21,896 nucleotides of DNA from IMG/VR virus record IMGVR_UViG_3300018933_000038, positions 1 through 21,896 of that record; one strand, 5' to 3'. The DNA is from a virus. The notes under the pieces are model-generated. The model saw only the letters and a list, made by a program, of their open reading frames with translations. It did not search any database and was not told where the DNA came from. The position numbers and the translations under genes were made by a program. Below, in pieces: positions 5,255 to 20,478 of this stretch (the first letter of the stretch is position 1; the number at the start of each line of letters is the position of its first letter).

Positions 5255-5342
5255 AGGAGCCCCGGCGCGACCCTCGATGAGATCCAGCCGCCGGGGCGTG
5301 TCTACACGATAGCGGGTGGCCCCAAGGGGCGGAGGTGGTCTC
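5255..5342 (+). promoter_or_regulatory. Short intergenic leader with inverted repeats before the hub gene
   Basis: This 88-base gap breaks an otherwise overlapping run of genes. It holds a perfect 9-base inverted repeat, GCCCCGGCG (5259-5267) and CGCCGGGGC (5289-5297), and a small repeat CGTGT-CT-ACACG (5297-5308). No T-run follows, so a classical terminator is not evident. It could be an internal promoter region, a processing site or a structured leader that tunes hub translation. Confidence 0.35.
5331..5338 (+). promoter_or_regulatory. Ribosome binding site deciding the hub start
   Basis: GGAGGTGG lies just upstream of GTG 5343, with seven bases between GGAGG and the start codon. The longer open frame could begin at GTG 5316, but nothing resembling a ribosome binding site precedes that codon, so 5343 is preferred. 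Confidence 0.7.
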
Positions 5343-7817
5343 GTGCCGAACTTCGTCCTGGCCCCGGGCGTCAAGGTCTACATCGCTACGCAGAAGCACG
5401 GGATCATCGACGTCTCGGACGACCTGGTCGAGGGTTCGATGACGCGGCGGTCCGACGGCGTCAGCAGCTTCAACTTCGCCCTGCAGAACGCGCGCCGGAA
5501 GTACGACGGCGTGCTGACGCCGAACGATCGCATCTCGGTGCAGATGAAGCGGTTGAAGTGGGTGCAGGTCTTCACCGGCTACCTGAACAAGGTGCCCCTG
5601 GTGACCGCTTGGCCGCGCGTGGTGCATCTGACGTCCTCCTGCTCGCTGAAGAGGCTCCAGTACTGGTACTGGGACTCGCACACCGAGGCCTCGCAGGCCA
5701 TGGTGCGCATGGCTCTGGAGGACGCCAGCAAGGAGACCGGGGTCTCCGACGGTGGCATGACGAACGTGGCACTGTCCGTGCTGAAGAAGGTCGTCGGCTG
5801 GCCGGAGTCGAAGGTCCACATCGCGCGGATCCCGGACAACTGGTACTCCGTCGTCGAGACGCTGGCCAAGCAGATCAACGCCGAGCTCGACAGCGCCGAC
5901 GAGATCGCGCGGGCGCTGTACGAGCAGCTCGGCACGGCGTCCGTCGGGGGCACGAGCGGCGCCGACGCGAGCTCGCTGACCGGCACGTACGGCGGGTTCA
6001 ACAGCAAGGAGCAGAAGGCCAACGGCGCGATCATCTACAACGTCGGCAAGGAGAAGGGGGCCTCCTCGCGCGACTGCATCGCGGCGATCATGACGGCGAT
6101 GCAGGAGTCCGGCCTGAAGAACCTCAAGGGCGGCGACCGCGACAGCGCGGGCCTGTTCCAGCAGCGACCGTCCATGGGCTGGGGCACCTACGAGCAGGTG
6201 ACCGACCCGAGGTACGCGGCCGGGAAGTTCTACGATGCCCTCTTCAAGGTCAAGAACCGCAACTCGATGGAGCTATGGCAGGTCTGTCAGGCCGTCCAGC
6301 GATCCGGCGTGCCCAGGGCGTACGACAAGCATGAGCCTGCCGCCACGGCGATGGTGAAGGACCTGGAGAAGGGCGGCGGGAAGTACTCCGGCCTGAACTC
6401 GAAGCCACAGGGCACGATCTCCGGCGTTGACCTGGCCCAGCTCGCGGTGAACTTCTGCAAGAAGTACCCGAACATCCCGTACACCCAGCAGTACGGCGGT
6501 ACCCAGCTCAGCGTGCTGAAGGCCGAGCCGCCGCCCGGCCTTGACTGCAGCTCCTTCGTGCAGGCCATGTACCTGCGCGCGCTGGGGGCCCTCTACGACA
6601 TCCCCCGCGTCGCGGCCGCGCAGTACAGCTTCTGCAAGAAGGTGTCGGTGGAGAAGGCCCTGAAGACCGCTGGAGCACTGGTCTTCAAGGGCGGCAGCCC
6701 CGCGTCTATCCACCACGTGGAGATGAGCCTGGGCGACGGCAAGAACACGATCGGCGCGCACAGCTCGCGAGCGAAGCCGAACGTCGGCATCGGACCGGCC
6801 CTGCCCGCGTCCTACTGGGACTACGGCGGCTTCCTGCCGCGCGTCGCGTACACCACCGGCGCTGGCACGGTCATCTTCGACGGCTCCGACGGCACCGACG
6901 GCGGCGTCGTCGACATGAACGACCCCACGGTCGAGCTGGTCACCGGCGCGGACGTGCCGGGCTACAACCCGGACGACCCGTTCGACAAGATGTTCGGCGA
7001 CAACGCGTGGACGCCGATCAGTACGGCGGAGAACGACCCGAACTACGCGATGGCGCAGATGCTGGTGGGGCCGCGCGCGCTGCTGAACGACCAGCCGCTG
7101 CTGCCGTACTTGAAAAATCTGTTCAACTCGACGATGCGATCGTTCTGCTCGGCGCCGAACGGTGACCTGATCGCCTGGTACCCCGACTACTACGGGATGT
7201 GGGGCACCGCCGCCAAGATGGTGGTGCAGCCGATCGAGGTGCAGGACTTCGAGGTGTCGTGGTCGGACGACTACATGGTCACGCATCAGTTCGTCGTCAC
7301 GGCGCCGTTCGGTACGAACCTCTTCGACCCGTCCACCGGCACGGCCCAGTCGGTGACTCAGGACTACCTGGCGTCGGCGGCCGTCTTCACCACGGGCGTG
7401 GTCAATGTCGACTTCCCGGGCGTGTGGAAGGCGTTGTTCGGGATGGACATGACGGAGGCGCAAGGGAAGGCGTACGCCGACTCACTCAAGCAGCGGTTCG
7501 GTGCTCGGCCGGACTACCAGCAGCTGCCTGGTCTGATCGGCCCGAAGGCCGCTCTGTTCAGCGCGATCTTCCTGTTCATGCGGCAGTTCGCCTACCAGTA
7601 CCAGGCCAGCATCCCCCTCACCTTCATGCCGGAGCTGTGGCCCGGGATGCTGCTGCAGTTCCCGGCCTTCAACTTCCAGGGGTACGTGACGACGGTGACG
7701 CACAGCTTCAAGTTCGGCGAGGGCGGCTACTTCAACACGTCCGTGAATATCGCGGCCCCTGCCCGGCTCACCGGCGACGAGAAACTGCTGGGTCTGCCGA
7801 TGGCGGGAGGGAAGTGA
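5343..7817 (+). CDS. Baseplate hub protein with embedded lysozyme-like and NlpC/P60 domains
   Basis: This 824-residue protein probably forms the central hub under the tail tube and carries two wall-cutting domains. Residues 1-190 (V-Y-I-A-T-Q-K, strand-rich, W-Y-W-D) and about 540-824 resemble the two halves of gp27/gpD-type hub proteins; the C-terminus contains F-M-P-E-L-W-P-G-M and V-T-H-S-F. Residues about 221-310 are lysozyme/transglycosylase-like: A-M-Q-E-S-G with candidate catalytic Glu 255, then G-D-R-D-S-A-G-L-F-Q-Q-R-P-S-x-G-W-G-T, a pattern common in actinobacterial wall hydrolases. Residues about 361-502 are NlpC/P60-like: L-D-C-S-S-F-V-Q with candidate nucleophile Cys 402 and His 457/458 (I-H-H-V-E-M); G-A-H-S-S (His 473) may supply the next residue. 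Known enzymes of these types cut glycan strands and stem peptides. Acting in the tail tip, both would open the wall locally during DNA entry. Catalytic assignments are read from motifs only. Confidence 0.8.
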   Translation: MPNFVLAPGVKVYIATQKHGIIDVSDDLVEGSMTRRSDGVSSFNFALQNARRKYDGVLTPNDRISVQMKRLKWVQVFTGYLNKVPLVTAWPRVVHLTSSCSLKRLQYWYWDSHTEASQAMVRMALEDASKETGVSDGGMTNVALSVLKKVVGWPESKVHIARIPDNWYSVVETLAKQINAELDSADEIARALYEQLGTASVGGTSGADASSLTGTYGGFNSKEQKANGAIIYNVGKEKGASSRDCIAAIMTAMQESGLKNLKGGDRDSAGLFQQRPSMGWGTYEQVTDPRYAAGKFYDALFKVKNRNSMELWQVCQAVQRSGVPRAYDKHEPAATAMVKDLEKGGGKYSGLNSKPQGTISGVDLAQLAVNFCKKYPNIPYTQQYGGTQLSVLKAEPPPGLDCSSFVQAMYLRALGALYDIPRVAAAQYSFCKKVSVEKALKTAGALVFKGGSPASIHHVEMSLGDGKNTIGAHSSRAKPNVGIGPALPASYWDYGGFLPRVAYTTGAGTVIFDGSDGTDGGVVDMNDPTVELVTGADVPGYNPDDPFDKMFGDNAWTPISTAENDPNYAMAQMLVGPRALLNDQPLLPYLKNLFNSTMRSFCSAPNGDLIAWYPDYYGMWGTAAKMVVQPIEVQDFEVSWSDDYMVTHQFVVTAPFGTNLFDPSTGTAQSVTQDYLASAAVFTTGVVNVDFPGVWKALFGMDMTEAQGKAYADSLKQRFGARPDYQQLPGLIGPKAALFSAIFLFMRQFAYQYQASIPLTFMPELWPGMLLQFPAFNFQGYVTTVTHSFKFGEGGYFNTSVNIAAPARLTGDEKLLGLPMAGGK

Positions 7818-8056
7818 TGCTGGGGCCGGGGAACGCGGCCTCGTACGGGCTTGGCTGGACGGTCAAGCAGGTCACCATCCGAGAGCTCATCGCGGGCAAG
7901 AAGAAGGCGCTGTGCGTCGACACCGAGGGTCAGCGGATCGAGGTCACGACAGCGATTCAGCGCACCGGGATCGAGCTGGAGGTGGGGCAGCGGTGGCTCG
8001 TCGACCGCACGTACGGGCACTGGACCTTCGCCGCCAAGCTGGACCTGGGGACATGA
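7817..8056 (+). CDS. Small baseplate-associated protein (79 aa)
   Basis: ATG 7817 shares one base with the hub stop (TGATG), so translation is probably coupled. The protein has alternating short strands (V-T-I-R-E-L, A-L-C-V-D-T-E-G-Q-R-I-E-V, I-E-L-E-V-G-Q-R-W-L-V-D-R, W-T-F-A-A-K-L) and looks like a compact beta-barrel, possibly of OB type as seen in some baseplate spike bases. This is a fold guess from the strand pattern, not a recognised family. It is the last gene before the convergent ParA/partner cassette and is followed within four bases by a large palindrome. Confidence 0.65.
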   Translation: MLGPGNAASYGLGWTVKQVTIRELIAGKKKALCVDTEGQRIEVTTAIQRTGIELEVGQRWLVDRTYGHWTFAAKLDLGT

Positions 8057-8059
8057 GAA

Positions 8060-8103
8060 GGCGGCCCGGACCTGTGACATGCATGTCACAGGTCCGGGCC
8101 GCC
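8060..8103. repeat. 44-bp perfect palindrome containing copy 1 of the 20-bp palindromic site
   Basis: The left half runs GGCGGCCCGGACCTGTGACA then TG and the right half is its exact reverse complement. The core CTGTGACATGCATGTCACAG is at 8072-8091. It lies between two convergent genes, starting four bases after the tail gene stop at 8056. It could fold into a very stable hairpin on either strand and act as a bidirectional terminator. No T-run follows on the + strand, which is often the case in actinobacterial terminators. It could equally be a protein-binding site. Confidence 0.9.
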
Positions 8104-8109
8104 AGAAAA

Positions 8110-8129
8110 CTGTGACATGCATGTCACAG
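8110..8129. repeat. Copy 2 of the 20-bp palindrome CTGTGACATGCATGTCACAG
   Basis: This is a perfect palindrome identical to the core of the 8060-8103 palindrome, starting six bases after it and ending nine bases before the 3' end of the partner gene on the minus strand. Read on the minus strand it is followed directly by TTTTCT, so here it could also work as an intrinsic terminator for the ParA/partner operon. The right flank GGTCTG is shared with copy 3. Confidence 0.9.
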
Positions 8130-8138
8130 GTCTGAGGG

Positions 8139-9044
8139 TCAGCCCGCGAGCAGCCCTTCAGCCTCAGCCAGCCTCTTCTTCATGTCGTCGATGTACTCCT
8201 GCGCGGACTGCCTGTCGCCTGCCTTGACCAGCTCCTGAACGAGGCCCAGGTCGAGCTTTCCGGTGGCCCGAGCTTCCCTCAGGCGCTCGGCTACGGGGCG
8301 CGGCTGCCGCGCGGTGAGCTGCTTCGGCTCCTTCGCCGCCTGCTCGCTCGCGGCCATCAGGCGGCGCAAGTTCTTCACCGCCTCAACGGTCACCTCTCCG
8401 TTCGCAGCCAGCTCGTCGTACTTGGCTCGCAGGAGGTCAGGGTCGTTCTTGCCCAGCGAGTAGAGCTGGTCGACGAGGTTCTGAGCCAGCGGAGCAGTCA
8501 GTCGGTCCCCGAGCGCCGTGTAGACGACGTGGTGCTTGATCGCGCGGTAGTAGGTGTGCCGCTCGATGCCGATGGACTTGGCGAACTTCTCGACGGAGCT
8601 GTGGCCGCCCGCCCTGTAGCTGCCCTTGGCCTGCACCTCGGCGAGCCAGCGGCCGGTGAGGGTCCAGTAGTTCTTCTCTATCTCGGCGAACCCGCTGCCA
8701 GCCGCCTCACCGATCTTCTTGATCTGGCGTGCCGCGTGGGCGAGGTGCTGCAGATCGTCGGAGTCCTCCGGTGCGGGGACGTACTCGAAGGGGTCGTCAG
8801 GCTCCCGGGGCTGCACGACCCCTTCGATGGGGGCTGGGGCGGTCGGATGCGGCAGCGCCTGTGGCTGCTCGGCCGGAGCGTTTGCGGCAGCGGCGGCAGC
8901 GGCTTCAAGGGCGTCGTCCTCGCCTCGGCGGGCCGGAGCAATCTCGGTGGCCGTGGCCGCCTGTGTGGCTGCCAGGATGCGCCTCTCCCGCGCCGTCAGC
9001 GGCTTGTTGGCCTTCTTGGTGGTGGGGGCCTCAATGCGGGCCAT
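8139..9044 (-). CDS. Putative ParB-like DNA-binding partner of ParA
   Basis: This 301-residue protein is encoded directly downstream of a ParA-family ATPase, with the start sharing one base with the ParA stop (TGATG on the minus strand). Residues 1-40 are basic and include L-T-A-R-E-R-R-I-L, resembling the Arg/Lys-rich N-terminal tips with which known ParB proteins stimulate ParA. Residues about 41-95 are a flexible Ala/Pro/Glu linker. Residues about 100-235 are helical, with a possible helix-turn-helix at 149-172 (S-S-V-E-K-F-A-K-S-I-G-I-E-R-H-T-Y-Y-R-A) and a helical bundle after it. The C-terminus (about 280-300) could form a short coiled coil for dimerisation. I do not see the conserved box motifs of canonical ParB (ParB/Srx fold), so it would be a divergent centromere-binding protein or a transcriptional regulator. 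The nearby repeated palindromes are natural candidates for its binding sites. Confidence 0.65.
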   Translation of the reverse strand: MARIEAPTTKKANKPLTARERRILAATQAATATEIAPARRGEDDALEAAAAAAANAPAEQPQALPHPTAPAPIEGVVQPREPDDPFEYVPAPEDSDDLQHLAHAARQIKKIGEAAGSGFAEIEKNYWTLTGRWLAEVQAKGSYRAGGHSSVEKFAKSIGIERHTYYRAIKHHVVYTALGDRLTAPLAQNLVDQLYSLGKNDPDLLRAKYDELAANGEVTVEAVKNLRRLMAASEQAAKEPKQLTARQPRPVAERLREARATGKLDLGLVQELVKAGDRQSAQEYIDDMKKRLAEAEGLLAG

Positions 9045-9838
9045 CAGCTGACGACCTCCTTCACGGCGTGGCGGAACAGAAGACCCACCTCTTCGAGATG
9101 GGTGCGCTTCGGGGTCTCGTCCCAGGAGCGCGGGTACTCGGGAGAGTCGCTGATCTCGAACTCCTTACCCACGAAGGTGATGTCGATCTTGTCGCGGATG
9201 TCGTCGTCGATCTTCATGGCCATGATGGACTCGACAACGGGGCGGGCGTCGGCTGCCAGCGTGTTGCGGCCGGTGCACTTCACCATGCACACGAAGACCT
9301 TCAGGCGGTTCTCGTTCGCCTTGCCGCCGCGCGCAGCAGTCTTGGCTGTCGGCGCGATCCGGTTCCACTCGAAGCCGGAAGGCGCGAACGGGAGGAGCAC
9401 CATGTGTGCCGCCTGGCACAGCTCCCAGTACTCCTCCTTACCGGCGCCGCCGGAGTCGACGATGACGACGTCGTGCGTCTTGCGGCAGGCGTCGATGACG
9501 TCATCGAGGTCGGGGGCGTCCTCTTCCTGGTTCTTGCAGTCGTAGGTGACCAGGTCGAACGGAACCTTCTCCGGCCCTCCGGGGCGGGACTCCCTGACCT
9601 TGTACCAGTTGTCGACGCTCTGGCTGTTGTTGTCCGTGTCGATCACGACGACCTTGAGGCCGAGGATCAGGGACAGGTAGAGGGCGAGGAAAATGGTCAT
9701 CGTGGTCTTGCCGGTGCCGCCCTTGAGCATCCCGACACCGATGACCAAGCATCCGTTGTTGTCGATCCACGCGCGGATCTCGGCATGTGAGGCAAGCAGG
9801 CGCTTCATCTGCTGTCTGGGGAGCGTTGAAGTCTTCAC
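9044..9838 (-). CDS. parA: ParA-family partition ATPase
   Basis: This 264-residue protein has the deviant Walker A motif K-G-G-T-G-K-T-T at residues 39-46, with the signature lysine at its start, an A' motif V-V-V-I-D-T-D-N-N-S-Q-S (63-74) and a Walker B-like D-V-V-I-V-D-S-G-G (123-131). These define the ParA/MinD group of ATPases. ParA proteins bind DNA non-specifically in the ATP form and move or position partner-bound DNA. The protein lacks a long N-terminal DNA-binding domain, so it resembles the short type Ib ParA. The start is GTG 9838, preceded on the minus strand by AGGAGAGGA about five bases upstream; ATG at residue 11 is an alternative. The substrate tail past residue 130 is less typical (G-A-G-K-E-E-Y). 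It forms an operon with the downstream partner gene and is transcribed against the surrounding tail genes. Confidence 0.88.
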   Translation of the reverse strand: MKTSTLPRQQMKRLLASHAEIRAWIDNNGCLVIGVGMLKGGTGKTTMTIFLALYLSLILGLKVVVIDTDNNSQSVDNWYKVRESRPGGPEKVPFDLVTYDCKNQEEDAPDLDDVIDACRKTHDVVIVDSGGAGKEEYWELCQAAHMVLLPFAPSGFEWNRIAPTAKTAARGGKANENRLKVFVCMVKCTGRNTLAADARPVVESIMAMKIDDDIRDKIDITFVGKEFEISDSPEYPRSWDETPKRTHLEEVGLLFRHAVKEVVS

Positions 9839-9955
9839 TCCAGTCCTCTCCTAGGCGGGGTGTCGCACCACATCTTGCCGTACAGGCGCCCTGGCTATGG
9901 CCAGGAGCCGTGTTTCGGGCCCGTTTGGCCGCTCCCAAGAGGTGAGGAGGTGGCC
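9839..9955. promoter_or_regulatory. Divergent intergenic region between parA and the gp25-like gene
   Basis: This 117-base region must carry the start signals of the minus-strand ParA operon and possibly of the + strand gp25 gene. It contains a perfect hairpin CCTGGC-TATG-GCCAGG (9890-9905) and a palindrome CGGGCCCG (9916-9923). A weak + strand promoter candidate is TTGCCG (9875-9880) with TATGGC (9896-9901), but the spacer of 15 bases is short. None of the 20-bp palindromes occurs here, so if they are operators they do not act at this promoter directly. Confidence 0.45.
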
Positions 9956-10384
9956 ATGAAGACGCTGGCACTCGTCGGTGGAGACCTCGCGCTGGGTGAG
10001 GGCGGCTACCGGACGCTGACCGGCGCGGCGCGGATCCGGCAGGACCTGGCGCTCGCGCTGGCCGAGCCGTACGGGCACGACCCGTATCACCCGGAGTTCG
10101 GGTCGGTGCTGGCCTCGCATATCGGTGAGCCGCTGACGCCGGAGCTGGAGCTGCTGGTCCGCTCGGAGGTCGTGCGCGTCCTGCAGCAGTACGTGGATGC
10201 TCAGCAGGCGCAGATCGCCGCCGATGCGCTGTCCGGCTCACGGTCCCGGTTCAGCTTCCAGGACGTGGTGAAGTCGGTCCAGTCCATCACCACGGACATC
10301 CAGTACGACACGCTGAAGGTGACCATCGCACTGCGGACGCAGTCCGGGGCTGTGGTCCGGGTGCTCCGAACGGTGAGCACCTGA
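9956..10384 (+). CDS. gp25-like (GPW/gp25 family) baseplate wedge protein
   Basis: This 142-residue protein matches the GPW/gp25 family by length and by the region D-L-A-L-A-L-A-E-P-Y-G-H-D followed by P-Y-H-P-E-F-G-S-V-L-A-S-H-I-G-E-P-L-T (about residues 25-60). That pattern, a helix, a short loop and then PEFGS, is typical of the wedge proteins that join the sheath to the baseplate in contractile tails. The C-terminal half has alternating strands (T-T-D-I-Q-Y-D-T-L-K-V-T-I-A-L-R-T). ATG 9956 is chosen because GAGGAGG (9944-9950) lies five bases upstream; the longer frame from 9860 would give an atypical N-terminal extension and no binding site. In most contractile phages the gene is next to baseplate J, as here after a 248-base gap. 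Its presence is the main evidence that the tail is contractile, together with the J-like protein. Confidence 0.85.
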   Translation: MKTLALVGGDLALGEGGYRTLTGAARIRQDLALALAEPYGHDPYHPEFGSVLASHIGEPLTPELELLVRSEVVRVLQQYVDAQQAQIAADALSGSRSRFSFQDVVKSVQSITTDIQYDTLKVTIALRTQSGAVVRVLRTVST

Positions 10385-10386
10385 TT

Positions 10387-10406
10387 CTGTGACATGCATG
10401 TCACAG
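10387..10406. repeat. Copy 3 of the 20-bp palindrome CTGTGACATGCATGTCACAG
   Basis: This copy is identical to the other two and starts two bases after the gp25-like stop codon. The right flank GGTCTG equals that of copy 2, so copies 2 and 3 share 26 identical bases in that direction. No T-run follows on either strand, which argues against a simple intrinsic terminator at this copy. It is about 2.3 kb from copies 1 and 2, on the other side of the ParA/partner cassette. Confidence 0.9.
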
Positions 10407-10538
10407 GTCTGCTGGAGCGGTAGGGTCGGTGCCCACGGGCGACGCGCGTCCGTTTCGCGAGAAGGCCTCACCGCTCCAAGCCAGGGCCAACTGGGGAGCA
10501 CCGAGGCCAGCGCGGCCTTCAGGTAGCTCTTGGAGGCG

Positions 10539-10578
10539 GAAGGCGGGGTCCCTTGCCCGGGACGCCGCCTTCACTTTT
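10539..10578 (+). terminator. Candidate intrinsic terminator upstream of the baseplate J gene
   Basis: The arms GAAGGCGG (10539-10546) and CCGCCTTC (10565-10572) pair perfectly. After a single G/G mismatch an inner stem GTCCC (10548-10552) / GGGAC (10559-10563) closes a six-base loop TTGCCC. The hairpin is followed by ACTTTT. This is the best intrinsic terminator in the window. It would end transcripts coming through gp25, implying a separate promoter for the J gene, or act as an attenuator that is read through late in infection. Confidence 0.65.
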
Positions 10579-10632
10579 GCTGTGAGGCGCCTTCCTCTCG
10601 CCCTCAAGGGGTGACGAGAGGGAGGGTGCCGC

Positions 10633-12483
10633 ATGGCTGTTTCCAGGGAGGACATCGTCTCGCAGATGCGGGACGCTCTGCTGGTCTCTGACCCGGAGCT
10701 GGATACGTCCATCGGCACCCCAGCTCGGAAAATCCTGGACGCGGTGGCCGCGTCGCTGGCCGACGCGTACGTCGAGAATCACGTGCTGTCGTACGCCTAC
10801 GACATCGACTCCAAGACCGACGCCGACCTGGACTCGTTCTGCCAGCTGTTCGGCATCGCCCGGATCGCGGCCCGGCGCGCGGTCGGCACGGTGACGTTCT
10901 CCCGGACCGGCGACCTGACCGCCACCGTCTTCATCCCGGTCGGAACCGAAATCGCGTCCTCGGCCGACACTGCGATCGTGGTCACCACGGTCACCGGCGC
11001 GACGCTCATGCCGGGCGCCACGTCGGTCACGGTGCCGGTCCAGGCCGTGACGGCCGGACCGGAGGGCAACCTGGGCGCCGGTCAGGCCACCCTGATCACC
11101 TCCCCCATCCAGGGAGTCAACTCGGTGGTCAACACGGCCGCCTTGACCGGCGGCATGTCCCGAGAGACCGACTCGGAGCTGCGGGCCCGCTGGAAGTCCA
11201 CGGTTTTCCGGTCGCTGGCCGGGACGGAGCAGATGTACCGGGGCGTGGCTCTGGACGACGCCGACTGCTACGCGGTGTCCGTCGTCGGCTCATCGCGGAC
11301 CCGGTCGGAGATCCTGCAGGTTCCCGCGAGCGGCAACACGGTCTGCCAGATCGCGGACGCCCGCTACATCTACTCCTCGCCGGTCAAGGTGACGAAGGCC
11401 GACGGCACGCCGCTGGTCAAGGGCTACGACTACACCTGGATCCCGGCGAACCCGCCGCAGATCTCGTCGCTGTCGTCGGCGTTCCCGGCTGCGGGCCAGC
11501 TGCTGACGGTGGAGTACCAGTACCTGCCGACGGTCAGCCGCAACGACCCGGCGAACAACATCACCAACCGGGTGGATCTCTTCGTCGGCGGCACCCGTGC
11601 GCAGGCCGCGCAGGCCTCCCTGGTTTTCCGGCAGGCGAAGAAGTTCCAGACCGTGTCCACGCTGGACCTGTACACGGGGCACTGGCTGCGCGCGGATCAG
11701 ACCCGGCCGGAGGCGAACAACGTCTACGTGCCGCTGCCGTTCGGGCCGATCGTCACCGTGCCGTCCACGATCAAGATCGGGGCGACGACGTATGGCCTGG
11801 CGACGAAGACGAACGCGCTGGGCACGGTCGCCAACGGGGTGACGTACGCCTACCAGATCATCCACGAGGATACGGTGGACGGCTGGACGCCGAACAGCCG
11901 CTTCGGGCTGGAGTGGCACCGTAGCTACCTCCCGGCGGACGGGTCGGCATTCTCGGTCGGCGGCAACGGCGACTACACCTACAACGAGGTGCCCGCCTCG
12001 GTCCAGGACGCGGTCAACCGCTGGCGGTTGGCCGGGATCGACACTCAAGTCCACCAGGCCAAGCAGCGCTGGCTCCGCTTCGCCCTGGGCGTGATGTACA
12101 CCGCCAACTCAACCGGATCGGTTGACTCGGTCCAGGACGCCATCCGCAGCGCCTTGAGCGACTACCTGAACCGGATGGACTTCAACTCGAACGTGCAGAT
12201 CAGCGACATCTTGACCGTCATTCACCAGGTGCCCGGGGTGGACAACTGCCGCCTGCTGCACGGCGGCGACGTGACCGGCTACAGCCCGGCCAACCCGAAC
12301 GCGTCCATCGTGGGCATCCAGCAGATCGCGCCCGGCGCAGCCCCGAACTCCGCCGCGCTCTCCAGCTACGTCGAGGCCGCCACCGGCCGGGCAAAGGACA
12401 TCTACTTCCGTGACGACGAGCTGCCCGCCCTCGGCGGGGTGGTCTTCAAGACCCTCGCCCGCAACAGCTTCGGGGTGCTGTGA
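10633..12483 (+). CDS. Baseplate J-like protein
   Basis: This 616-residue protein carries the hallmarks of the baseplate J family: an N-terminal helical part with P-A-R-K-I-L-D-A-V-A, a central beta-domain with I-P-V-G-T-E-I-A-S (101-109) and A-G-P-E-G-N-L-G-A-G (141-150), and the signature L-T-G-G-M-S-R-E-T-D-S-E-L-R-A-R-W at about 171-187. J proteins form the outer wedge of contractile baseplates and link the wedge to the fibres. It is longer than many family members (about 300-450 residues), with an inserted beta-rich region at roughly 220-430 containing an Y-I-Y-S-S-P-V segment. The C-terminal V-P-G-V-D-N-C-R-L (about 533-541) also fits the family. ATG 10633 is preceded by GGGAGGG (10620-10626). 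The stop shares one base with the next start (TGATG), showing translational coupling. Confidence 0.88.
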   Translation: MAVSREDIVSQMRDALLVSDPELDTSIGTPARKILDAVAASLADAYVENHVLSYAYDIDSKTDADLDSFCQLFGIARIAARRAVGTVTFSRTGDLTATVFIPVGTEIASSADTAIVVTTVTGATLMPGATSVTVPVQAVTAGPEGNLGAGQATLITSPIQGVNSVVNTAALTGGMSRETDSELRARWKSTVFRSLAGTEQMYRGVALDDADCYAVSVVGSSRTRSEILQVPASGNTVCQIADARYIYSSPVKVTKADGTPLVKGYDYTWIPANPPQISSLSSAFPAAGQLLTVEYQYLPTVSRNDPANNITNRVDLFVGGTRAQAAQASLVFRQAKKFQTVSTLDLYTGHWLRADQTRPEANNVYVPLPFGPIVTVPSTIKIGATTYGLATKTNALGTVANGVTYAYQIIHEDTVDGWTPNSRFGLEWHRSYLPADGSAFSVGGNGDYTYNEVPASVQDAVNRWRLAGIDTQVHQAKQRWLRFALGVMYTANSTGSVDSVQDAIRSALSDYLNRMDFNSNVQISDILTVIHQVPGVDNCRLLHGGDVTGYSPANPNASIVGIQQIAPGAAPNSAALSSYVEAATGRAKDIYFRDDELPALGGVVFKTLARNSFGVL

Positions 12484-13827: not shown

Positions 13828-16800
13828 ATGGCCGACCTGTACGCCAACTACGCCGAACTGGCCGCCGCGCGCCAGATCGGCGTGGACTATCGGCTGCTGG
13901 TGCGCACCCCTCCGGGCTCTCGGCTGGCTCACATCGCCATCCACGGCGGCGGCATCGAGCCCGGCACCACGGAGATCGCGGACTACCTGGCCGGGTCTGC
14001 GTCGCGGTTCTACAGCTTCGACGGCATGCTCACCTCGGGCAACGCCGACATGCACATCACCGCGACGAACTACGACGAGCCGCAGGCCCTGGAGCTCGTC
14101 GCAGCCAGCGACTACGTCATCTCCTGGCACGGCGCGGCCGGGGACAGCGAGGTCACCTACATCGGCGGTCTCGACACCGAGACCGGGGAGAAGATCGCCA
14201 CCGCGCTGACGCAGGCCGGATTCACCGTGCAGGCGGCCACCGGGGGCATCGCTGGCACCGAGCCTACGAACATCTGCAACCGGGGCGCTCGCGCGATGGG
14301 TGTCCAGATGGAGCTCAGCCTGGCGCTGAGGCAGTCGTTCTTCGAGGACTTCACCCGCAGCGGGCGGGACAGCGGTGTCCGTACGTCCGCCTTCTACACC
14401 TACATGGCCGCCATCCAGACGGCGCTCAACGGCATGGACGTGCCAGGCAAGGCCGTTGGCTCGGCATGGAAGGGGCGCGTTGCCCGGCCGGTCGGCGTCA
14501 CCAGCTCGCTGTCCGGCGACTTCGGCGTCCCCACCCTGGCCCCCTTGACCGTGGACGGCATGCCCCTTGACTCACTCAAGGACGCGCTGCGCCTGTCAAG
14601 CCAGCGGCAGAGCTCGGGCAACACCGAGCGGTTCTGGTCAAGCCCTCCCCGGAACAACGGGGACCCGGTGCGCGAGGTGTTCGAGTTCTCGCTGTCCACT
14701 TCCCGACCGGTCAACCGGCTGTCGTTCTCCCTCGCCCGGTTCCCGCAGCGGGCCTGGGTCCAGTACCGCGACACCGATGGGGTGTGGCGGCCGCTGCGGA
14801 ACTCCCGCACCGGCGGCGTGGTCCAGCTCAGCATCATGGACTCCGTCCCGGCAGTTATCCCGACCGGCGTGGCCAACGAGGTCAAGTTGCACCCGCAGCA
14901 CTTCGGCGCCGGGCACTGGATGCCGCAGATGGTCGACGTCGAGCCGGTCACCGCCAGCAGGTTCAGGATCATCATGACCCGGCTGCCGTCCGGGTCCGCG
15001 CCGCGCGGGAACGACGGGCAGCCGGTCCCGTACTCGCTGGGAGTCAAAGACGCCCTGGTCTCCTACCGGGCCTCGTCCTTGACCGACCTGCCGTGGCTGC
15101 CCCAGCAGGACTCCGAGCACACGGTGCCGGTCGCCGGGTCAACCGACCTGCTGGGCTCCCAGGTCGACTACCTGGTGCGACGCAACCGGGCGGACAACCT
15201 GGTCCCGCCCGCGAGCGGCGTGTGGCGGTGCGCGCCGCAGCCGGTGCCGAACGCCGTGGTGAGCCTGTACCTGGACCTGCGCACCTCGGACGGCGCCGCT
15301 CAAGTCGTCGACCGCCTGTACGTTGACCCGGTCACGTCCGGGGTGTCGATGAACCTGTACTACACCGACGCCACGGCCGTGCCCGAGCGGTTCGAGCCGA
15401 GCGACACTCCGCTGACCTCGCCTCTTGTCCGCGCGTCGGCGGACATGCCCGTTGCCGACGGCGAGGGGCTGCTGTTCAGCTCGCCCCGCTCGTACCTCGA
15501 CGTGGACAACCGGGCCTGCCAGTTCGACCCGGCCAGTCCTTTCCTGCTGGCCATGACGGTCCAGCCCCAGGTCACCTCCGAGGACGCCGGTCAGTGGACC
15601 GTCCTGGACACCCCGGCGATGACCCTCTGGATCAAGGAGGGCTCGGTCAAGGCCCGCCTGGGTGACCGCACGGTCGAGCTTGAGCCGGTCACGTTCGGGG
15701 TCAACTCCCGCATCCCGATCGCCGTGGCGTACGACGGCTCGACGTTGACCGTGCGCACGCCCTGGGAGACCCGGGTCCAGGAGCACACCCACGTGCAGGA
15801 CATGGCGCCGCCGAGCGTCATCCGGCTCGGCGGACCGTTGCAGGGCGAGGGTGGCTCGCTGCGCCTGCGGAACCTCTTCCTGGCGCTCGGCCGCGCCGCC
15901 GACGTCGACTCCATCGAGGCCTACTGGGACGACCCGTCCGTCTACGCCTTCAACCCCGGCTACGGCAAGGACGCCACGGCGCACACCTGCTCCAGCGCGG
16001 TCCTGCGCATGGACCCCAGCCTCATCACGGCCGGGCTGGAGTCCGTCTGCCCGTGGGGCCTGATCGGCGGGCCGCCGGTCGCCCTGGACGACCTGGTGTG
16101 GACCCCGGTCCCGGGCGACTTCACCCTGCGCAAGGGGCTGATGAAGTTCAGGCCGGTCAAGGCCCGGCACCTGAAGCTGGAGTTCACCAACCTGCAGCCG
16201 ATGCTGCTCACCCCGAGCCAGGCCGCGCCGCTGGTGGAGACGAAGCTGTTCCCGGCCGACACCGGGCGGGGCTCCAGCATCGTCGCCTCCGGCGACACCC
16301 AGTCCGGCTCGGCTCCGGTGGGCGCCCGGGTCGCCACCGAGCAGGGCGCGGTCTACCAGTACGTGGACGCCAACCGAATCGTCTCCACGACGGCCAGCTC
16401 GGCGGCCTACCTGCCGACGGAGGCCCTGTACGCGCCGGACCCCATCGCTGCCCAGCAGCTGCGCCGGTCCGGCCAGCGATTCCCGTACATGCCGCTGCCG
16501 GGGACGAAGGCGCCGCGCTTCACCAGCACGGGCAGGCACCGCTACCACGTGGTCCAGCTGGCCATGGACACCAAGGTCGCCTACACCGTGGCGCTGTCGC
16601 AGGTGCTCGCCTACCTGGCCGACCCGATCGCCCAGCGCGACACCGAGCAGTACGTGGAGCTGCTCCACGACACCGCCTACCTGTCCGGCTACCGCGATGA
16701 CGAGCAGGGCGGCTGGACGCACACCGGCTCAGCGCTCGTGACGACGGAGCAGCCACCCTTCACGGGCGCGCGGATCACGTCGAAAACGTTCGTGTCCAAG

Positions 16801-18012
16801 CGGCGGGTGCTCGGCGTGCAGTTCGCCGCGCAGGCCTCGACGGCCAAGCAGCTCGTCAGCGACCCGGACTTCGACGACCCGAGCCTGCGGTACTGGCGGC
16901 CGGTCGGCGACGCCACGATCAGCTCCTCAACCGAGTACATCTCCACCCTGGGCCGCATGGCCGAGGTGGTGCGCGGGCACGCCGTGTCGTCCTGGGGCGC
17001 GCTGGAGTCGAGGTTCCCGACCTGGGGGGACCTCGACGAGGCGGACCCGCTGCCGAACCGGCCACTGTGGTGGGAGATCGAAAACGCCACCAGCCAGGCC
17101 GACTTCGGCGGCATCGAGTCGCTGCGGCCGGTGACCCCGGCACCGGGGGGCCGCCTGTACGCGGCCGCAAGGGTCTACACCGACGCTCCGCTCATCGAGC
17201 CGCTGCGGCTGCAGCTGGTCAACGGCGACGGCCGGATCCTGGCCGAGGCCACCCGCACCTTCGACGCAGCCACGGTCGGCGAGTGGTACGTCGGCTTCAC
17301 CGTGCGCACCAGCGCGCCGACCGGGACGGTCACCTGGGACACGGTGTCGGCCGGGAACACCCGCTCCTGGGGCGCCGTCGAAGGCCGGGGGCTATGGGGC
17401 GACGTCACCCAGGACTGGGACATGGACGACGTCCACAACGTCCGGGTCCGCATCATCCAGCAGGGCCGCGAGGGCACCGGCCAGTGGCACACGGACTCGC
17501 TGGCCATCTTCAACGACCCGATCATCTGGGAGGTGTCCCGGGACGGCGGCGTGAACTGGCACGAGATGCTGGACATCCGCAACAACCCGCGCGGGGTGTT
17601 CCTCTTCCCCGACCTGCCCGCCAGCGACCGGTCCGGCGGCACCCAGCTGCGCTGGAGGGTCACCGGCTACGCCCCGGACCTGTCGGTGTCCTCGGTCATC
17701 CTGCGCCCCTGGTACGCCACGCTGACCGGCGCGGTGCCCTACCAGGACACGCTGCAGGCAGCCGGAGCCGCGAGCTCACTGGCCGACTACTACCCGGCGG
17801 TCGACTCCGACCCGCTGTTCCGAGGCTGGCAGCACCCCATCCCCGAGGACTGGTGGCTGGCGTTCCGCCAGTGGATGCAGCAGAACGCGCCGAAGACCGA
17901 CCCGCTGCCCACGATCACCCTGCCCGAGGCGGTGGCCGAGGGCACCAACGAGGGCAACCCGCCCGCGCTGGCTCGCCACACGCTCACCGACGCCTTCGTC
18001 CTCAACCGCTAA
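13828..18012 (+). CDS. Large tail protein with N-terminal poly-gamma-glutamate hydrolase-like domain and lectin-like domains
   Basis: The 1,394-residue product is the largest in the window. Residues 1 to about 205 match the pattern of the PghP/YjqB family (poly-gamma-glutamate hydrolase): I-A-I-H-G-G-G-I-E-P-G-T-T-E-I-A (His 39, Glu 44), S-G-N-A-D-M-H-I-T-A (His 76), Y-D-E-P (82-85), S-W-H-G-A (His 101), Y-I-G-G-L-D, N-I-C-N-R-G (148-153) and G-V-Q-M-E-L-S (Glu 162). Family members are zinc enzymes that cut gamma-linked glutamate polymers. Later parts are beta-rich: a discoidin-like stretch near 283-325, a LamG/concanavalin-like segment about 564-711, a carbohydrate-binding-like segment about 1008-1230 and an R-D-G-G-V-N-W-H-E repeat-like strand region after it. 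It probably forms a fibre or side-spike that digests a surface polymer while binding it. Start ATG 13828 follows AAGGGG (13817-13822). Domain borders are estimates; the lectin calls are weaker than the hydrolase call. Confidence 0.78.
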   Translation: MADLYANYAELAAARQIGVDYRLLVRTPPGSRLAHIAIHGGGIEPGTTEIADYLAGSASRFYSFDGMLTSGNADMHITATNYDEPQALELVAASDYVISWHGAAGDSEVTYIGGLDTETGEKIATALTQAGFTVQAATGGIAGTEPTNICNRGARAMGVQMELSLALRQSFFEDFTRSGRDSGVRTSAFYTYMAAIQTALNGMDVPGKAVGSAWKGRVARPVGVTSSLSGDFGVPTLAPLTVDGMPLDSLKDALRLSSQRQSSGNTERFWSSPPRNNGDPVREVFEFSLSTSRPVNRLSFSLARFPQRAWVQYRDTDGVWRPLRNSRTGGVVQLSIMDSVPAVIPTGVANEVKLHPQHFGAGHWMPQMVDVEPVTASRFRIIMTRLPSGSAPRGNDGQPVPYSLGVKDALVSYRASSLTDLPWLPQQDSEHTVPVAGSTDLLGSQVDYLVRRNRADNLVPPASGVWRCAPQPVPNAVVSLYLDLRTSDGAAQVVDRLYVDPVTSGVSMNLYYTDATAVPERFEPSDTPLTSPLVRASADMPVADGEGLLFSSPRSYLDVDNRACQFDPASPFLLAMTVQPQVTSEDAGQWTVLDTPAMTLWIKEGSVKARLGDRTVELEPVTFGVNSRIPIAVAYDGSTLTVRTPWETRVQEHTHVQDMAPPSVIRLGGPLQGEGGSLRLRNLFLALGRAADVDSIEAYWDDPSVYAFNPGYGKDATAHTCSSAVLRMDPSLITAGLESVCPWGLIGGPPVALDDLVWTPVPGDFTLRKGLMKFRPVKARHLKLEFTNLQPMLLTPSQAAPLVETKLFPADTGRGSSIVASGDTQSGSAPVGARVATEQGAVYQYVDANRIVSTTASSAAYLPTEALYAPDPIAAQQLRRSGQRFPYMPLPGTKAPRFTSTGRHRYHVVQLAMDTKVAYTVALSQVLAYLADPIAQRDTEQYVELLHDTAYLSGYRDDEQGGWTHTGSALVTTEQPPFTGARITSKTFVSKRRVLGVQFAAQASTAKQLVSDPDFDDPSLRYWRPVGDATISSSTEYISTLGRMAEVVRGHAVSSWGALESRFPTWGDLDEADPLPNRPLWWEIENATSQADFGGIESLRPVTPAPGGRLYAAARVYTDAPLIEPLRLQLVNGDGRILAEATRTFDAATVGEWYVGFTVRTSAPTGTVTWDTVSAGNTRSWGAVEGRGLWGDVTQDWDMDDVHNVRVRIIQQGREGTGQWHTDSLAIFNDPIIWEVSRDGGVNWHEMLDIRNNPRGVFLFPDLPASDRSGGTQLRWRVTGYAPDLSVSSVILRPWYATLTGAVPYQDTLQAAGAASSLADYYPAVDSDPLFRGWQHPIPEDWWLAFRQWMQQNAPKTDPLPTITLPEAVAEGTNEGNPPALARHTLTDAFVLNR

Positions 18013-18021
18013 GGAGCCCTC

Positions 18022-18807
18022 GTGCGCGCGCACTTCAACCGCGCCCTGCTCGACCAGCAGGGCAACCAGGTCACCTCCGCCCAGGTGCGGCTCCTGGCCC
18101 CCGGCCGCACCGACCTGTACGGCCAGACCATCTACGCCGAGGCCACCGGCGGCACGACCCGCACCAACCCGTGGACGACGACCACCGGCGAGGTCGACTT
18201 CTACCTCGACGCCCCGGACCGCGTCCGGATCGGCGTCAAGGTCGGAGTGGCCCCGGAGGAGTTCTGGGACAACGTCGATGTGCTGGGGGTCGGCAACGAC
18301 TCCACGCACCCCGGCAGCGGCGAGGACTCCCTGCAGATCGGTGTCGGCGCCAGCGCGTCGGGACTGCATGCGACCGCGCTCGGCCAGGGAGCCCACGCCG
18401 CCGGAGACCAGTCCGCCGCGCTCGGTGAACAGGCGTCAACCGCCGGGGCCGGGGCGGTGGCCGCTGGCGCGCAGGCCTCCGCCACCCAGCCCGGCGCGGT
18501 GGCGCTCGGCCAGTCGGCACTGGCTCAAGGGAGCCAGTCCGCCGCCCTGGGCGCGGCGGCGCAGGCAACGTACAACCGCTCAACCGCCATCGGCGCGGGA
18601 GCCGAGACCGACCGGCCGAACCAGGTCGTCATCGGCACGCCCTCCGAGGTCGTCTTCCTGCCAGGAAGCGTCGCCCTGCTCAGCCCCAACGGCAACACGT
18701 TCCTGGTGGCTGTCACCGACGACGGCATGCTCTACACCCAGCAGCTGCCGACCTACGTGCCGCCCCCGCCGATCGAGGAGGGCGAAGGGGAGAGCGAAGG
18801 CCCGTAA
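18022..18807 (+). CDS. Tail fibre protein with anchor domain and YadA-like head repeats (short)
   Basis: This 261-residue protein starts at GTG 18022 with AAGGAG (18012-18017) overlapping the previous stop. Residues 1-90 form an anchor domain shared with the next fibre gene: R-A-H near the start, A-Q-V, then T-G-G-x-x-x-T-N-P and G-E-V-D-F-Y-L-D-A-P-D-R-V. Residues about 104-205 are tandem head-like repeats of the YadA/Hep_Hag type (units such as A-T-A-L-G-Q-G-A and S-A-A-L-G-x-x-A, about 14 residues each), which in bacterial adhesins form a trimeric beta-roll. The end (Q-V-V-I-G-T-P-S-E-V-V-F) is the usual closing motif of such repeats. A Pro-rich and acidic tail follows. It lacks an enzymatic domain. 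Likely a trimeric fibre or adaptor for another fibre. Confidence 0.78.
   Translation: MRAHFNRALLDQQGNQVTSAQVRLLAPGRTDLYGQTIYAEATGGTTRTNPWTTTTGEVDFYLDAPDRVRIGVKVGVAPEEFWDNVDVLGVGNDSTHPGSGEDSLQIGVGASASGLHATALGQGAHAAGDQSAALGEQASTAGAGAVAAGAQASATQPGAVALGQSALAQGSQSAALGAAAQATYNRSTAIGAGAETDRPNQVVIGTPSEVVFLPGSVALLSPNGNTFLVAVTDDGMLYTQQLPTYVPPPPIEEGEGESEGP
18331..18636 (+). repeat. YadA/Hep_Hag-like head repeats, short fibre
   Basis: About seven in-frame units of roughly 14 residues encode alternating Ala/Gly/Ser patterns ending in (A/S)-x-A-(L/V/I)-G. The units are similar at protein level but diverged at DNA level. Known repeats of this type form left-handed trimeric beta-rolls. Confidence 0.65.
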
Positions 18808-18864
18808 GCCCGGAATGCTGTGCTGCGCCCCCCTGGTGACTGAAGAGGTGACGAGGGAGGCGTA

Positions 18865-20478
18865 GTGGCGCGAGCACACGTGATGCGGCCGATCACCGGC
18901 GAGACAGGCGACCTGCTGTACGGCGCGCAGGTCACCGTGCGTGAGGCCGGGCTGTCGGTGAAGGTCGCCCAGCAGCTGTACGCGGGACCGACCGGGGGTG
19001 AGCAGCTGACGAACCCGTTCGTCGCGGCCAACGGCGTCATCGACTTCTGGGTGGATGAGCCGCAGCGCGTCTCGGTCCTGGTCCAGCACGAGAGCCACTC
19101 CGACATCCTCGTCTACCTGGACGCCGCACCGCCGCCGGAGGAGACCGCGCGCACGGACAGCCCGCTGCTCATCGTCGGCGAGCAGGTGCCCGGCAACGTG
19201 CTGCTGGCCGGTAACACCCCCGGCCAGGCGGTGTGGGGGCCGGTCCCCGCGAGCTCGGGCCTCACACCCCGGGTCACCGTGATCAGAGAGGACTTCGCGC
19301 TTTCCCGGGACCCGGTAGGCTGGTCGTTCACCCAGGCCGCCAACTCCACCCGCGACTATCCGACGGACGCCCCCACGGACTGGGGCTACTCCCGCTCCCT
19401 GCGCGGCAAGCACACCGGCAACTCGGGCAACCTGGTCGCCACCACCCCGGGCTTCACGCTGATCGAGCCGGGCTACATCTCATTGTGGCTGCGGCCAACG
19501 TTGGCCGCTGGCGAGAGCGTCGCCATCGCGGTGACGGCGCAGAACGGCACCAAGACGGTCCTGCAGACGCTCACGGACACCCGCACCTGGGGCTTGTACC
19601 GCTTCCCGCTGGCGGCCGGAACGTACCAGTCGGCATCCGTCGAGTTCAAGGGCGCGGCCACCTTCGTCGCGGGCACCGGCCACGAGATGTGGATGACCGG
19701 CCTGCAGATCATGTACGGCGGCACGGTCCCCGCGCACACCCACTCCGGCTCCGGTGTCAACTCGGTTCTCCTTGGCACCTCGGCCGTGGCCTCCGGCGTT
19801 GCCTCGGTCGCCGTCGGCGCAGCCGCCCAGGCCACCGGCACCAACGCCACCGCCTTCGGTGCCCGTGCGCAGGCAGCCGCCATTGACTCTCTGGCCGTCG
19901 GCCCCGACGCCAAGGCGCTATCCCAGAACTCGGTCGCCGTCGGCCCGCGCGCCAACGGCTCCCTGGCCTCAACCGGCTGGACCGCCGTCGGCACCGACGC
20001 CTACGTCGACTCGGTCGACGGCACCGCGATCGGCCGGTCGGCACAGGCATACGGCCAGGCCGGTACCGCTGTCGGCTACACGGCTTACGTCGGCCCCGGC
20101 GCCACCAACGCTGTGGCGCTCGGCAGAAACGCCCAAGCCCTCGCCCCCGGGGGACTCGCCCTCGGTGCCAACACGGTCGTCGCGGCCAGCCACACCGGGT
20201 CCTCGGCCATCGGTGACGCGGCCAAGACCACCGCCGCCGAGCAGGTCATGCTGGGCAACAGCGACACCCCGCTGCGGTCCGTCGTCTTCGCCAACCGGCT
20301 CTACGCCCTCGCCGCTGTCAACCTGGGCACGGACGCCTCTTCTCGGCTGGGGTTCTTCGGCGCCGAGGGCACTGTGAGGCCGATCGTCACCGGCTCCGAC
20401 GGCGGCAACCTGTCGCTGCGCGGCCTCCTTGGCGCGCTGCACGCACTCGGCCTGATCATCAACAACACCACGAACTGA
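18865..20478 (+). CDS. Tail fibre protein with anchor domain, beta-sandwich and YadA-like head repeats (long)
   Basis: This 537-residue paralogue of the preceding fibre starts at GTG 18865 with GAGGGAGG (18853-18860) upstream. Residues 1-87 repeat the anchor domain (R-A-H, G-A-Q-V, T-G-G-E-Q-L-T-N-P, G-V-I-D-F-W-V-D-E-P-Q-R-V). Residues about 135-288 are strand-rich and may be a beta-sandwich. A-H-T-H-S-G (290-295) is an HxH motif of the kind that binds metal along trimeric fibres. Residues about 299-475 are a long series of YadA/Hep_Hag-like repeats ending in E-Q-V-M-L-G-N and V-V-F-A-N. The C-terminus contains R-P-I-V-T-G-S-D-G-G-N and L-L-G-A-L-H-A-L-G-L-I, a short ending that I recall from many actinobacterial phage fibres. 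It probably forms a long trimeric adhesin. Confidence 0.8.
   Translation: MARAHVMRPITGETGDLLYGAQVTVREAGLSVKVAQQLYAGPTGGEQLTNPFVAANGVIDFWVDEPQRVSVLVQHESHSDILVYLDAAPPPEETARTDSPLLIVGEQVPGNVLLAGNTPGQAVWGPVPASSGLTPRVTVIREDFALSRDPVGWSFTQAANSTRDYPTDAPTDWGYSRSLRGKHTGNSGNLVATTPGFTLIEPGYISLWLRPTLAAGESVAIAVTAQNGTKTVLQTLTDTRTWGLYRFPLAAGTYQSASVEFKGAATFVAGTGHEMWMTGLQIMYGGTVPAHTHSGSGVNSVLLGTSAVASGVASVAVGAAAQATGTNATAFGARAQAAAIDSLAVGPDAKALSQNSVAVGPRANGSLASTGWTAVGTDAYVDSVDGTAIGRSAQAYGQAGTAVGYTAYVGPGATNAVALGRNAQALAPGGLALGANTVVAASHTGSSAIGDAAKTTAAEQVMLGNSDTPLRSVVFANRLYALAAVNLGTDASSRLGFFGAEGTVRPIVTGSDGGNLSLRGLLGALHALGLIINNTTN
19759..20289 (+). repeat. YadA/Hep_Hag-like head repeats, long fibre
   Basis: About a dozen in-frame units of roughly 14 residues follow the motif x-x-A-x-A-x-G-x-x-A-x-A, with insertions in some units (for example around S-T-G-W-T-A-V-G and Y-V-G-P-G-A-T-N). 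The array is longer and more divergent than in the short fibre, which fits repeat expansion and later drift. Confidence 0.65.

Follow-up and report, generated by a model that had tools for sequence, protein, structure and literature searches.

The ParATS system of SCP2, a conjugative plasmid of Streptomyces coelicolor, relies on ParT, a ParB-like protein that lacks a CTPase domain. ParT is loaded at an inverted repeat of 18 bp within its own gene, parT, spreads independently of cytidine triphosphate (CTP), and activates ParA via its N-terminus (PMC12260392). Two further comparators are the canonical ParABS systems, such as those of SCP1 ParB1/ParB2 (PMC13245405), and the parABS loci of cluster A actinobacteriophages such as RedRock, whose partner diversity has been suggested as a means against incompatibility (PMC7157519). 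Here, we describe a ParA-partner cassette, accompanied by three copies of one 20-bp palindrome, in a 21,896-nt stretch of IMG/VR virus record IMGVR_UViG_3300018933_000038 (positions 1 to 21,896; hereafter the window). We interpret this locus, with a probability of about 86%, as a ParATS-type partition system that is carried by a phage and has exchangeable specificity, in which the palindromes are parS-like flanking sites that are partly embedded in a terminator.

The palindrome, CTGTGACATGCATGTCACAG, is perfect and occurs in three exact copies across the whole window (Table 1), in agreement with an earlier reading of this DNA from its sequence alone (the sequence-only reading); no fourth match is present with up to three mismatches allowed. 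Zero copies of the 20-mer are expected by chance (100 shuffles of the window), and perfect 20-bp palindromes of whatever sequence are expected at ~0.02 per 21.9 kb. Copies 1 and 2, spaced 38 bp, lie between convergent gene ends (tail gene stop at 8056, partner stop at 8139), and the third lies past the gp25 gene (stop at 10384), bracketing the cassette as that reading had described. Conservation was assessed across 13 independent phage lineages, with near-identical contigs of L015 counted once. Copy 2, the partner-proximal site, is identical at 20/20 positions in 8/8 lineages with a window-like (type A) partner, and its flanks are 39–52% identical; invariant runs in the final 402 nt of the adjoining partner genes (seven lineages) reach 7 nt at most. 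The core of copy 1 is kept with at most one mismatch in 7/7 lineages, surrounded by outer arms that vary across lineages with complementarity largely retained. Scans for other elements gave no canonical parS TGTTTCACGTGAAACA in the window at up to three mismatches, just low-scoring microRNA-like hairpins far under the gathering scores in Rfam across the region, no tRNA at four loci, and no promoter between 7700 and 10800 in a simple scan.

parA is located directly upstream of the partner gene, the end of the former and the start of the latter sharing one base (9044). The window partner is assigned to no family by Pfam, NCBIfam or PHROGs, and sequence searches against the PDB gave no match. Profile comparison points to ParT: a ten-sequence ParT alignment matches the phage partners (A4 versus A5, including the partner of the 155-kb relative G407) with an hhalign probability of 96% and an E value of 2.7e-9 over 213 columns. 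The A1 versus A4 comparison scores 48.4, against a maximum of 20.6 in 100 column-shuffled controls and 13–14 for unrelated alignments; a single SCP2 ParT sequence gave no significant match to the phage partners. The AlphaFold2 model of partner A comprises a disordered N-terminus with a weak short helix (18–30), a long helix (97–115), a confident helical core (120–181), and C-terminal helices, and the model of partner B is similar. The core is probably a helical, helix-turn-helix DNA-binding core, as far as the models indicate. Both models are helical, save two one-residue bridges in B, with no CTPase-like domain seen; no Pfam ParB match was found in the partner at E values up to 10, in a search that included no canonical-ParB positive control. 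By profile, the partner is a remote homolog of SCP2 ParT, and it has no recognizable CTPase domain. A palindrome scan located TGTCTCCAATTGGAGACA inside SCP2 parT, the gene to which the published 18-bp parS maps (PMC12260392), and similar ~18-bp palindromes in or near other parT genes; palindromes of about this length are likewise present in the phage sites, as the TGTGACATGCATGTCACA core in A and as TGAGACCCNNGGGTCTCA in B', comparable to SCP2 TGTCTCCAATTGGAGACA.

The locus shares with SCP2 ParATS a ParA-partner operon, a partner that lacks a CTPase domain and is arranged as a disordered N-terminus, long helix, helical DNA-binding core and C-terminal helices, a perfect palindrome as the site (the 18-bp parS in SCP2), and homology detectable both between the partner families and between the two ParAs. 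It differs in its location in a phage tail module rather than on a conjugative plasmid, in intergenic sites, two close together and one distal, rather than a parS inside parT, in a different palindrome with exchangeable site alleles, and in very low sequence identity. RedRock resembles it in combining actinobacterial extrachromosomal prophages, ParA, a small partner and flanking parS loci, but belongs to an unrelated phage type. The RedRock ParB is an 89-aa protein with weak ribbon-helix-helix matches and undetectable similarity to the window partner, and its parS loci are eight 8-bp direct repeats instead of 20-bp palindromes; site form and partner protein rule out membership in the cluster A group. 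Canonical ParABS has in common with the locus an ATPase, a centromere-binding protein, a palindromic site, and a variable N-terminal ParA contact; in contrast, no ParB CTPase domain is detected in the window partner, which excludes a canonical CTP-dependent helix-turn-helix ParB, and the canonical parS is missing from the window.

The allele carried at the sites follows the type of the partner. All eight lineages with a type A partner have the identical 20-mer at the corresponding position, whereas all five with other partner types (B or B', ~26–34% identical) carry site B or B' there instead, leaving zero exceptions among the 13 lineages (Fisher p 0.0008). Site B is TGAGACCC-AGT-GGGTCTCA and its variant B' is TGAGACCC-NN-GGGTCTCA; both are also paired, with 36–38 bp spacing and, in some lineages, a third copy after gp25. 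Within IMG/VR, site B is confined to this phage group, namely the contigs with a type B partner, L011, and L036, a fragment in which the partner is out of view. ParA does not dictate the allele, as types 1 and 2 are each found with both site A and site B. In L015, ParA is 88% identical to that of the window, yet the partner is just 33% identical and the 20-mer is replaced by two copies of GTGAGACCCAGTGGGTCTCAC, spaced 37 bp; conversely, L004, L009, L011, L014 and L050 combine a ParA only ~40% identical to the window with partner A and site A. Lineage L067, with a B' partner 61% identical to B, has TGAGACCC-GT/AT-GGGTCTCA in three copies, the pair spaced 36 bp and the third overlapping the gp25 stop codon. 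Besides the window, distal copies occur in L005 and L007 (A), L039, L036 and G408 (B), and L067 (B'). Where distal site and partner are both visible, the copy on the far side of ParA agrees with the partner type in 5/5 lineages: the window and L007 for A, L039 and G408 for B, and L067 for B'.

Splitting the partner at a conserved ARRG motif revealed two modules, the first ~38 residues and the remainder. The first ~38 residues are alike wherever the ParAs are alike, independent of the remainder, with a TARERR-type N-terminus accompanying ParA type 1 and an FGGRG-type accompanying type 2; the remainder falls into two blocks matching the site types. In Mantel tests (12 lineages), the N-terminus is associated with ParA (rho 0.73, p 0.0002) and the remainder with the site (rho 0.87, p 0.002), with no association, near zero, between N-terminus and remainder or between ParA and site. 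Judging from the sequences, such a pattern would be expected of a protein that combines a ParA-contact peptide with a site-reading domain. The proposal of a new parS-like site in the sequence-only reading thereby gains support, as a change of the site accompanies one in the DNA-binding part of the partner, not one in ParA, and the divergent ParB-like partner of that reading is better described as ParT-like than as a canonical ParB.

More distant cassettes also pair a partner with a palindrome. G407 carries GTTCCGCGCGGAAC at the partner 3' end, in a cassette at a different genome position. Three Streptomyces plasmids, pFRL1, the NBC_01766 plasmid and pZL1, have long perfect palindromes directly 3' of the partner gene, and in pFRL1 the palindrome also precedes the ATPase gene, thus standing on both sides of the cassette. 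The partners on pZL1 (L099), NBC_01766 unnamed1 (L100) and pFRL1 (L101) are relatives of the G407 partner, and that of pFRL1 shows weak similarity to the phage partners in profile comparison.

Outside the window, the 20-mer is rarely found without its cassette. It is present in eight IMG/VR contigs, adjoined by the partner gene in 8/8, and in the 154–157 kb records it is confined to the cassette. Among 84,980 bacterial and archaeal species genomes, it has three exact matches, each from a Streptomyces genome; two are cassettes (MH60 and A0642), and the third is a clustered regularly interspaced short palindromic repeats (CRISPR) spacer, the sole copy found without a cassette in these genomes. 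The spacer, TGTGACATGCATGTCACAGAAATCGAGGTCCCG (L051:1383-1402; Streptomyces albipurpureus CWNU-1, NZ_JAMQAW010000105.1), sits between CCCCGCAGCGCGGGGAC repeats and, by sequence, reads as a CRISPR memory of a phage of this kind. Since the closest phage site matches just 27/33 spacer bases, the targeted phage would be an unsampled relative. Searching 393 Streptomyces genomes with a profile of the partner gave one match, the known MH60 element, indicating that the partner family is rare.

A relative carrying the 20-mer is pRLB1-9.1 from Streptomyces sp. RLB1-9, a 154,158-bp record deposited as a complete, circular plasmid, which encodes major capsid, tail, helicase, DNA polymerase and replication genes. 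No perfect palindrome with arms ≥10 bp, other than the two 20-mer copies, is present in its first 150 kb. The plasmid-like prophage of the sequence-only reading has a counterpart in this relative as deposited; for the window, we infer a plasmid state from its relatives. Separately, pRLB1-9.1 encodes, at 139588–143064 (L033:39588-43064) near the capsid gene, a 1158-aa protein annotated as ParB/RepB/Spo0J family; its Pfam match at E ≤0.001 is DUF7178 alone, and it is distinct from the cassette partner. At 69862–71032 (L032:19862-21032), it carries as cargo an ATP-grasp enzyme and a putative ATP-grasp-modified ribosomally synthesized and post-translationally modified peptide (tgmA).

Several observations weigh against a ParATS-type partition system with exchangeable specificity. 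The third site is missing from most type A lineages, and L011 holds, alongside partner A and two A sites, one palindrome matching B', with runs of A and T (L011:2100-2119), possibly a relic or a plain terminator. Structure searches with the partner at E ≤0.001 returned no match in the PDB (models A and B) or in a viral library (model A only), the models holding long disordered stretches. The window is a 21.9-kb linear fragment, the plasmid state being seen in pRLB1-9.1 as deposited; the annotation of that plasmid includes two tyrosine recombinases, so its integration is possible. Lastly, the site pair adjoins the partner 3' end and the partner N-terminus adjoins ParA; this physical linkage, which the distal copies break only in part, is the principal caveat.

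Among the alternatives, the palindromes could be merely transcription terminators between convergent units, the tail and ParA operons, copied at a few gene ends. Copy 1 is at the apex of a perfect 44-nt hairpin (−46.9 kcal/mol, z −10.5) with outer arms that vary by lineage and are mostly still complementary, copy 2 is followed by TTTT on the minus strand in a terminator-like match, and runs of A and T border the type B copies, as in bidirectional terminators. A terminator requires a stem, however, and not one set 20-base sequence, and here the 20-mer stays fixed as the outer arms diverge. The T run of copy 2 is missing in L004, L007 and L010; L011 possesses the separate terminator-like hairpin of B' sequence next to two A sites that are intact without complementary arms, as if, from its sequence, centromere and terminator roles were separated. 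The 20-mer is used nowhere but in the cassette in 154–157 kb genomes, and termination fails to predict that the site, distal copy included, tracks the partner type. We consider this explanation improbable. Termination between convergent operons is likely a second role, owing to the fold strength of copy 1 and the A/T runs at the type B copies; the terminator alternative mentioned in the sequence-only reading thus survives in part, for copy 1, and falls short as a full explanation.

Alternatively, the association between site and partner could reflect linkage only, adjacent DNA being exchanged en bloc and the palindromes serving some other purpose or none. Because site, partner and ParA adjoin, linkage together with recombination inside the partner gene could yield the same association, and only the distal copies break the linkage; the pair lies within ~70 bp of the partner stop, and recombination clearly shuffles the region. 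This reading is weakened by three observations: the exact 20-mer is retained while neighboring sequence diverges, distal copies across ParA agree with the partner type in every lineage showing both, and unrelated palindromes recur at the equivalent place in G407, at another genome position, and in the three Streptomyces plasmids. We regard it as a little less probable again than pure termination. Least likely, and very much so, is that the palindromes are operators through which the partner, as a transcriptional repressor, regulates itself: perfect palindromes and a helical partner with a probable, model-based helix-turn-helix would suit this, but the close pair lies at the operon 3' end, the ParA-gp25 interval that must hold the operon promoter contains no copy in any lineage inspected, and the distal copy alone could overlap a promoter. 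A CRP-like operator, suggested by the TGTGA...TCACA appearance, was rejected, as the halves are separated by 8 bp and none is present at the parA promoter; the CRP consensus has 6 bp between TGTGA and TCACA.

As a partition system, the cassette would operate in three parts in a Streptomyces phage living as a plasmid. ParA would act as the nucleoid-binding ATPase; the basic N-terminus of the partner (~38 residues) would contact ParA, and the partner, as a dimer, would bind the 20-bp palindrome through its helical core and C-terminus. The 20-mers would be the loading sites, two of them close together at the operon 3' end and, depending on the lineage, a further one ~2.3 kb off, past gp25. As in the case of SCP2 ParT, dimers of the partner may load at these sites and spread onto neighboring DNA independently of CTP, recruit ParA, and activate its ATPase; copies of the plasmid would thereby be pulled apart before septation or sporulation and the plasmid stabilized. 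The copy 1 hairpin would probably also terminate transcription between the two convergent operons. The site alleles (A, B, B', and the unrelated palindromes of distant relatives) would recombine with the DNA-binding part of the partner, apart from ParA and the contact peptide. A broader proposal, on which we see the odds as evenly balanced, is of a phage-plasmid family that switches partition specificity by recombination at the partner domain boundary: the ParA-contact peptide would travel with ParA, and the DNA-binding part with a set of unrelated palindromic centromeres, escaping mutual incompatibility, with the partners acting as CTP-independent clamps of the ParT kind.

Table 1. Palindromes, cassette genes and flanking genes in the window
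Feature	Position	Strand	Basis or remark
Site A copy 1 (parS-like)	8072..8091	.	Exact match; center of larger hairpin
Site A copy 2, partner-proximal	8110..8129	.	Exact match; invariant in 8/8 type A lineages
Site A copy 3, distal	10387..10406	.	Exact match; just 3' of gp25 stop at 10384
44-nt perfect inverted repeat, copy 1 at center	8060..8103	-	Probable terminator of ParA-partner operon
Partner gene, 301 aa, predicted ParT-like centromere-binding protein	8139..9044	-	Profile homology, structure model
ParA-type Walker ATPase, 264 aa, type 1	9044..9838	-	ParA family matches
Large tail-module protein with NlpC/P60 domain, upstream of cassette	5316..7817	+	Domain match
Small tail-module gene, left flank of cassette	7817..8056	+	Open reading frame, lineage comparison
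gp25-like baseplate protein, right flank of cassette	9956..10384	+	phrog_2669
Baseplate J-like protein	10633..12483	+	PF04865

The genes surrounding the cassette (NlpC/P60 tail protein, gp25, baseplate J) constitute, by their matches, a contractile-tail module. In the phage collection, baseplate J is nearest to that of large mycobacteriophages (Tonenili, HyRo and similar, 154–161 kb), at ~30% identity, and partner A and ParA have no match. Further downstream, 13828–20478 encodes a 1394-aa protein with a poly-gamma-glutamate hydrolase domain followed by two proteins with YadA-head repeats, probably a tail fiber region acting on a poly-gamma-glutamate layer. The ~190 bp located 3' of the distal site (10407–10600) are common to L005 and L007, missing in other relatives, and contain a strong hairpin followed by CACTTTT, possibly a small RNA or leader; in L007, TATGGT is positioned at a promoter-like distance from the distal site.

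CTP-independent partition of the ParT kind was described as late as 2025, for one plasmid. The present finding places a remote ParT branch in tailed phages of large size; their centromere sites can be identified from sequence alone, and swaps that have occurred in nature uncouple the part contacting ParA from the part reading the site. Matched and mismatched sets of partners A, B and B' with sites A, B and B' serve questions of specificity, phage-plasmid incompatibility, and half-site spacing (a 2- or 3-bp center). If true, switching at the domain boundary would provide a set of natural variants from which the recognition code of the ParT family could be read.

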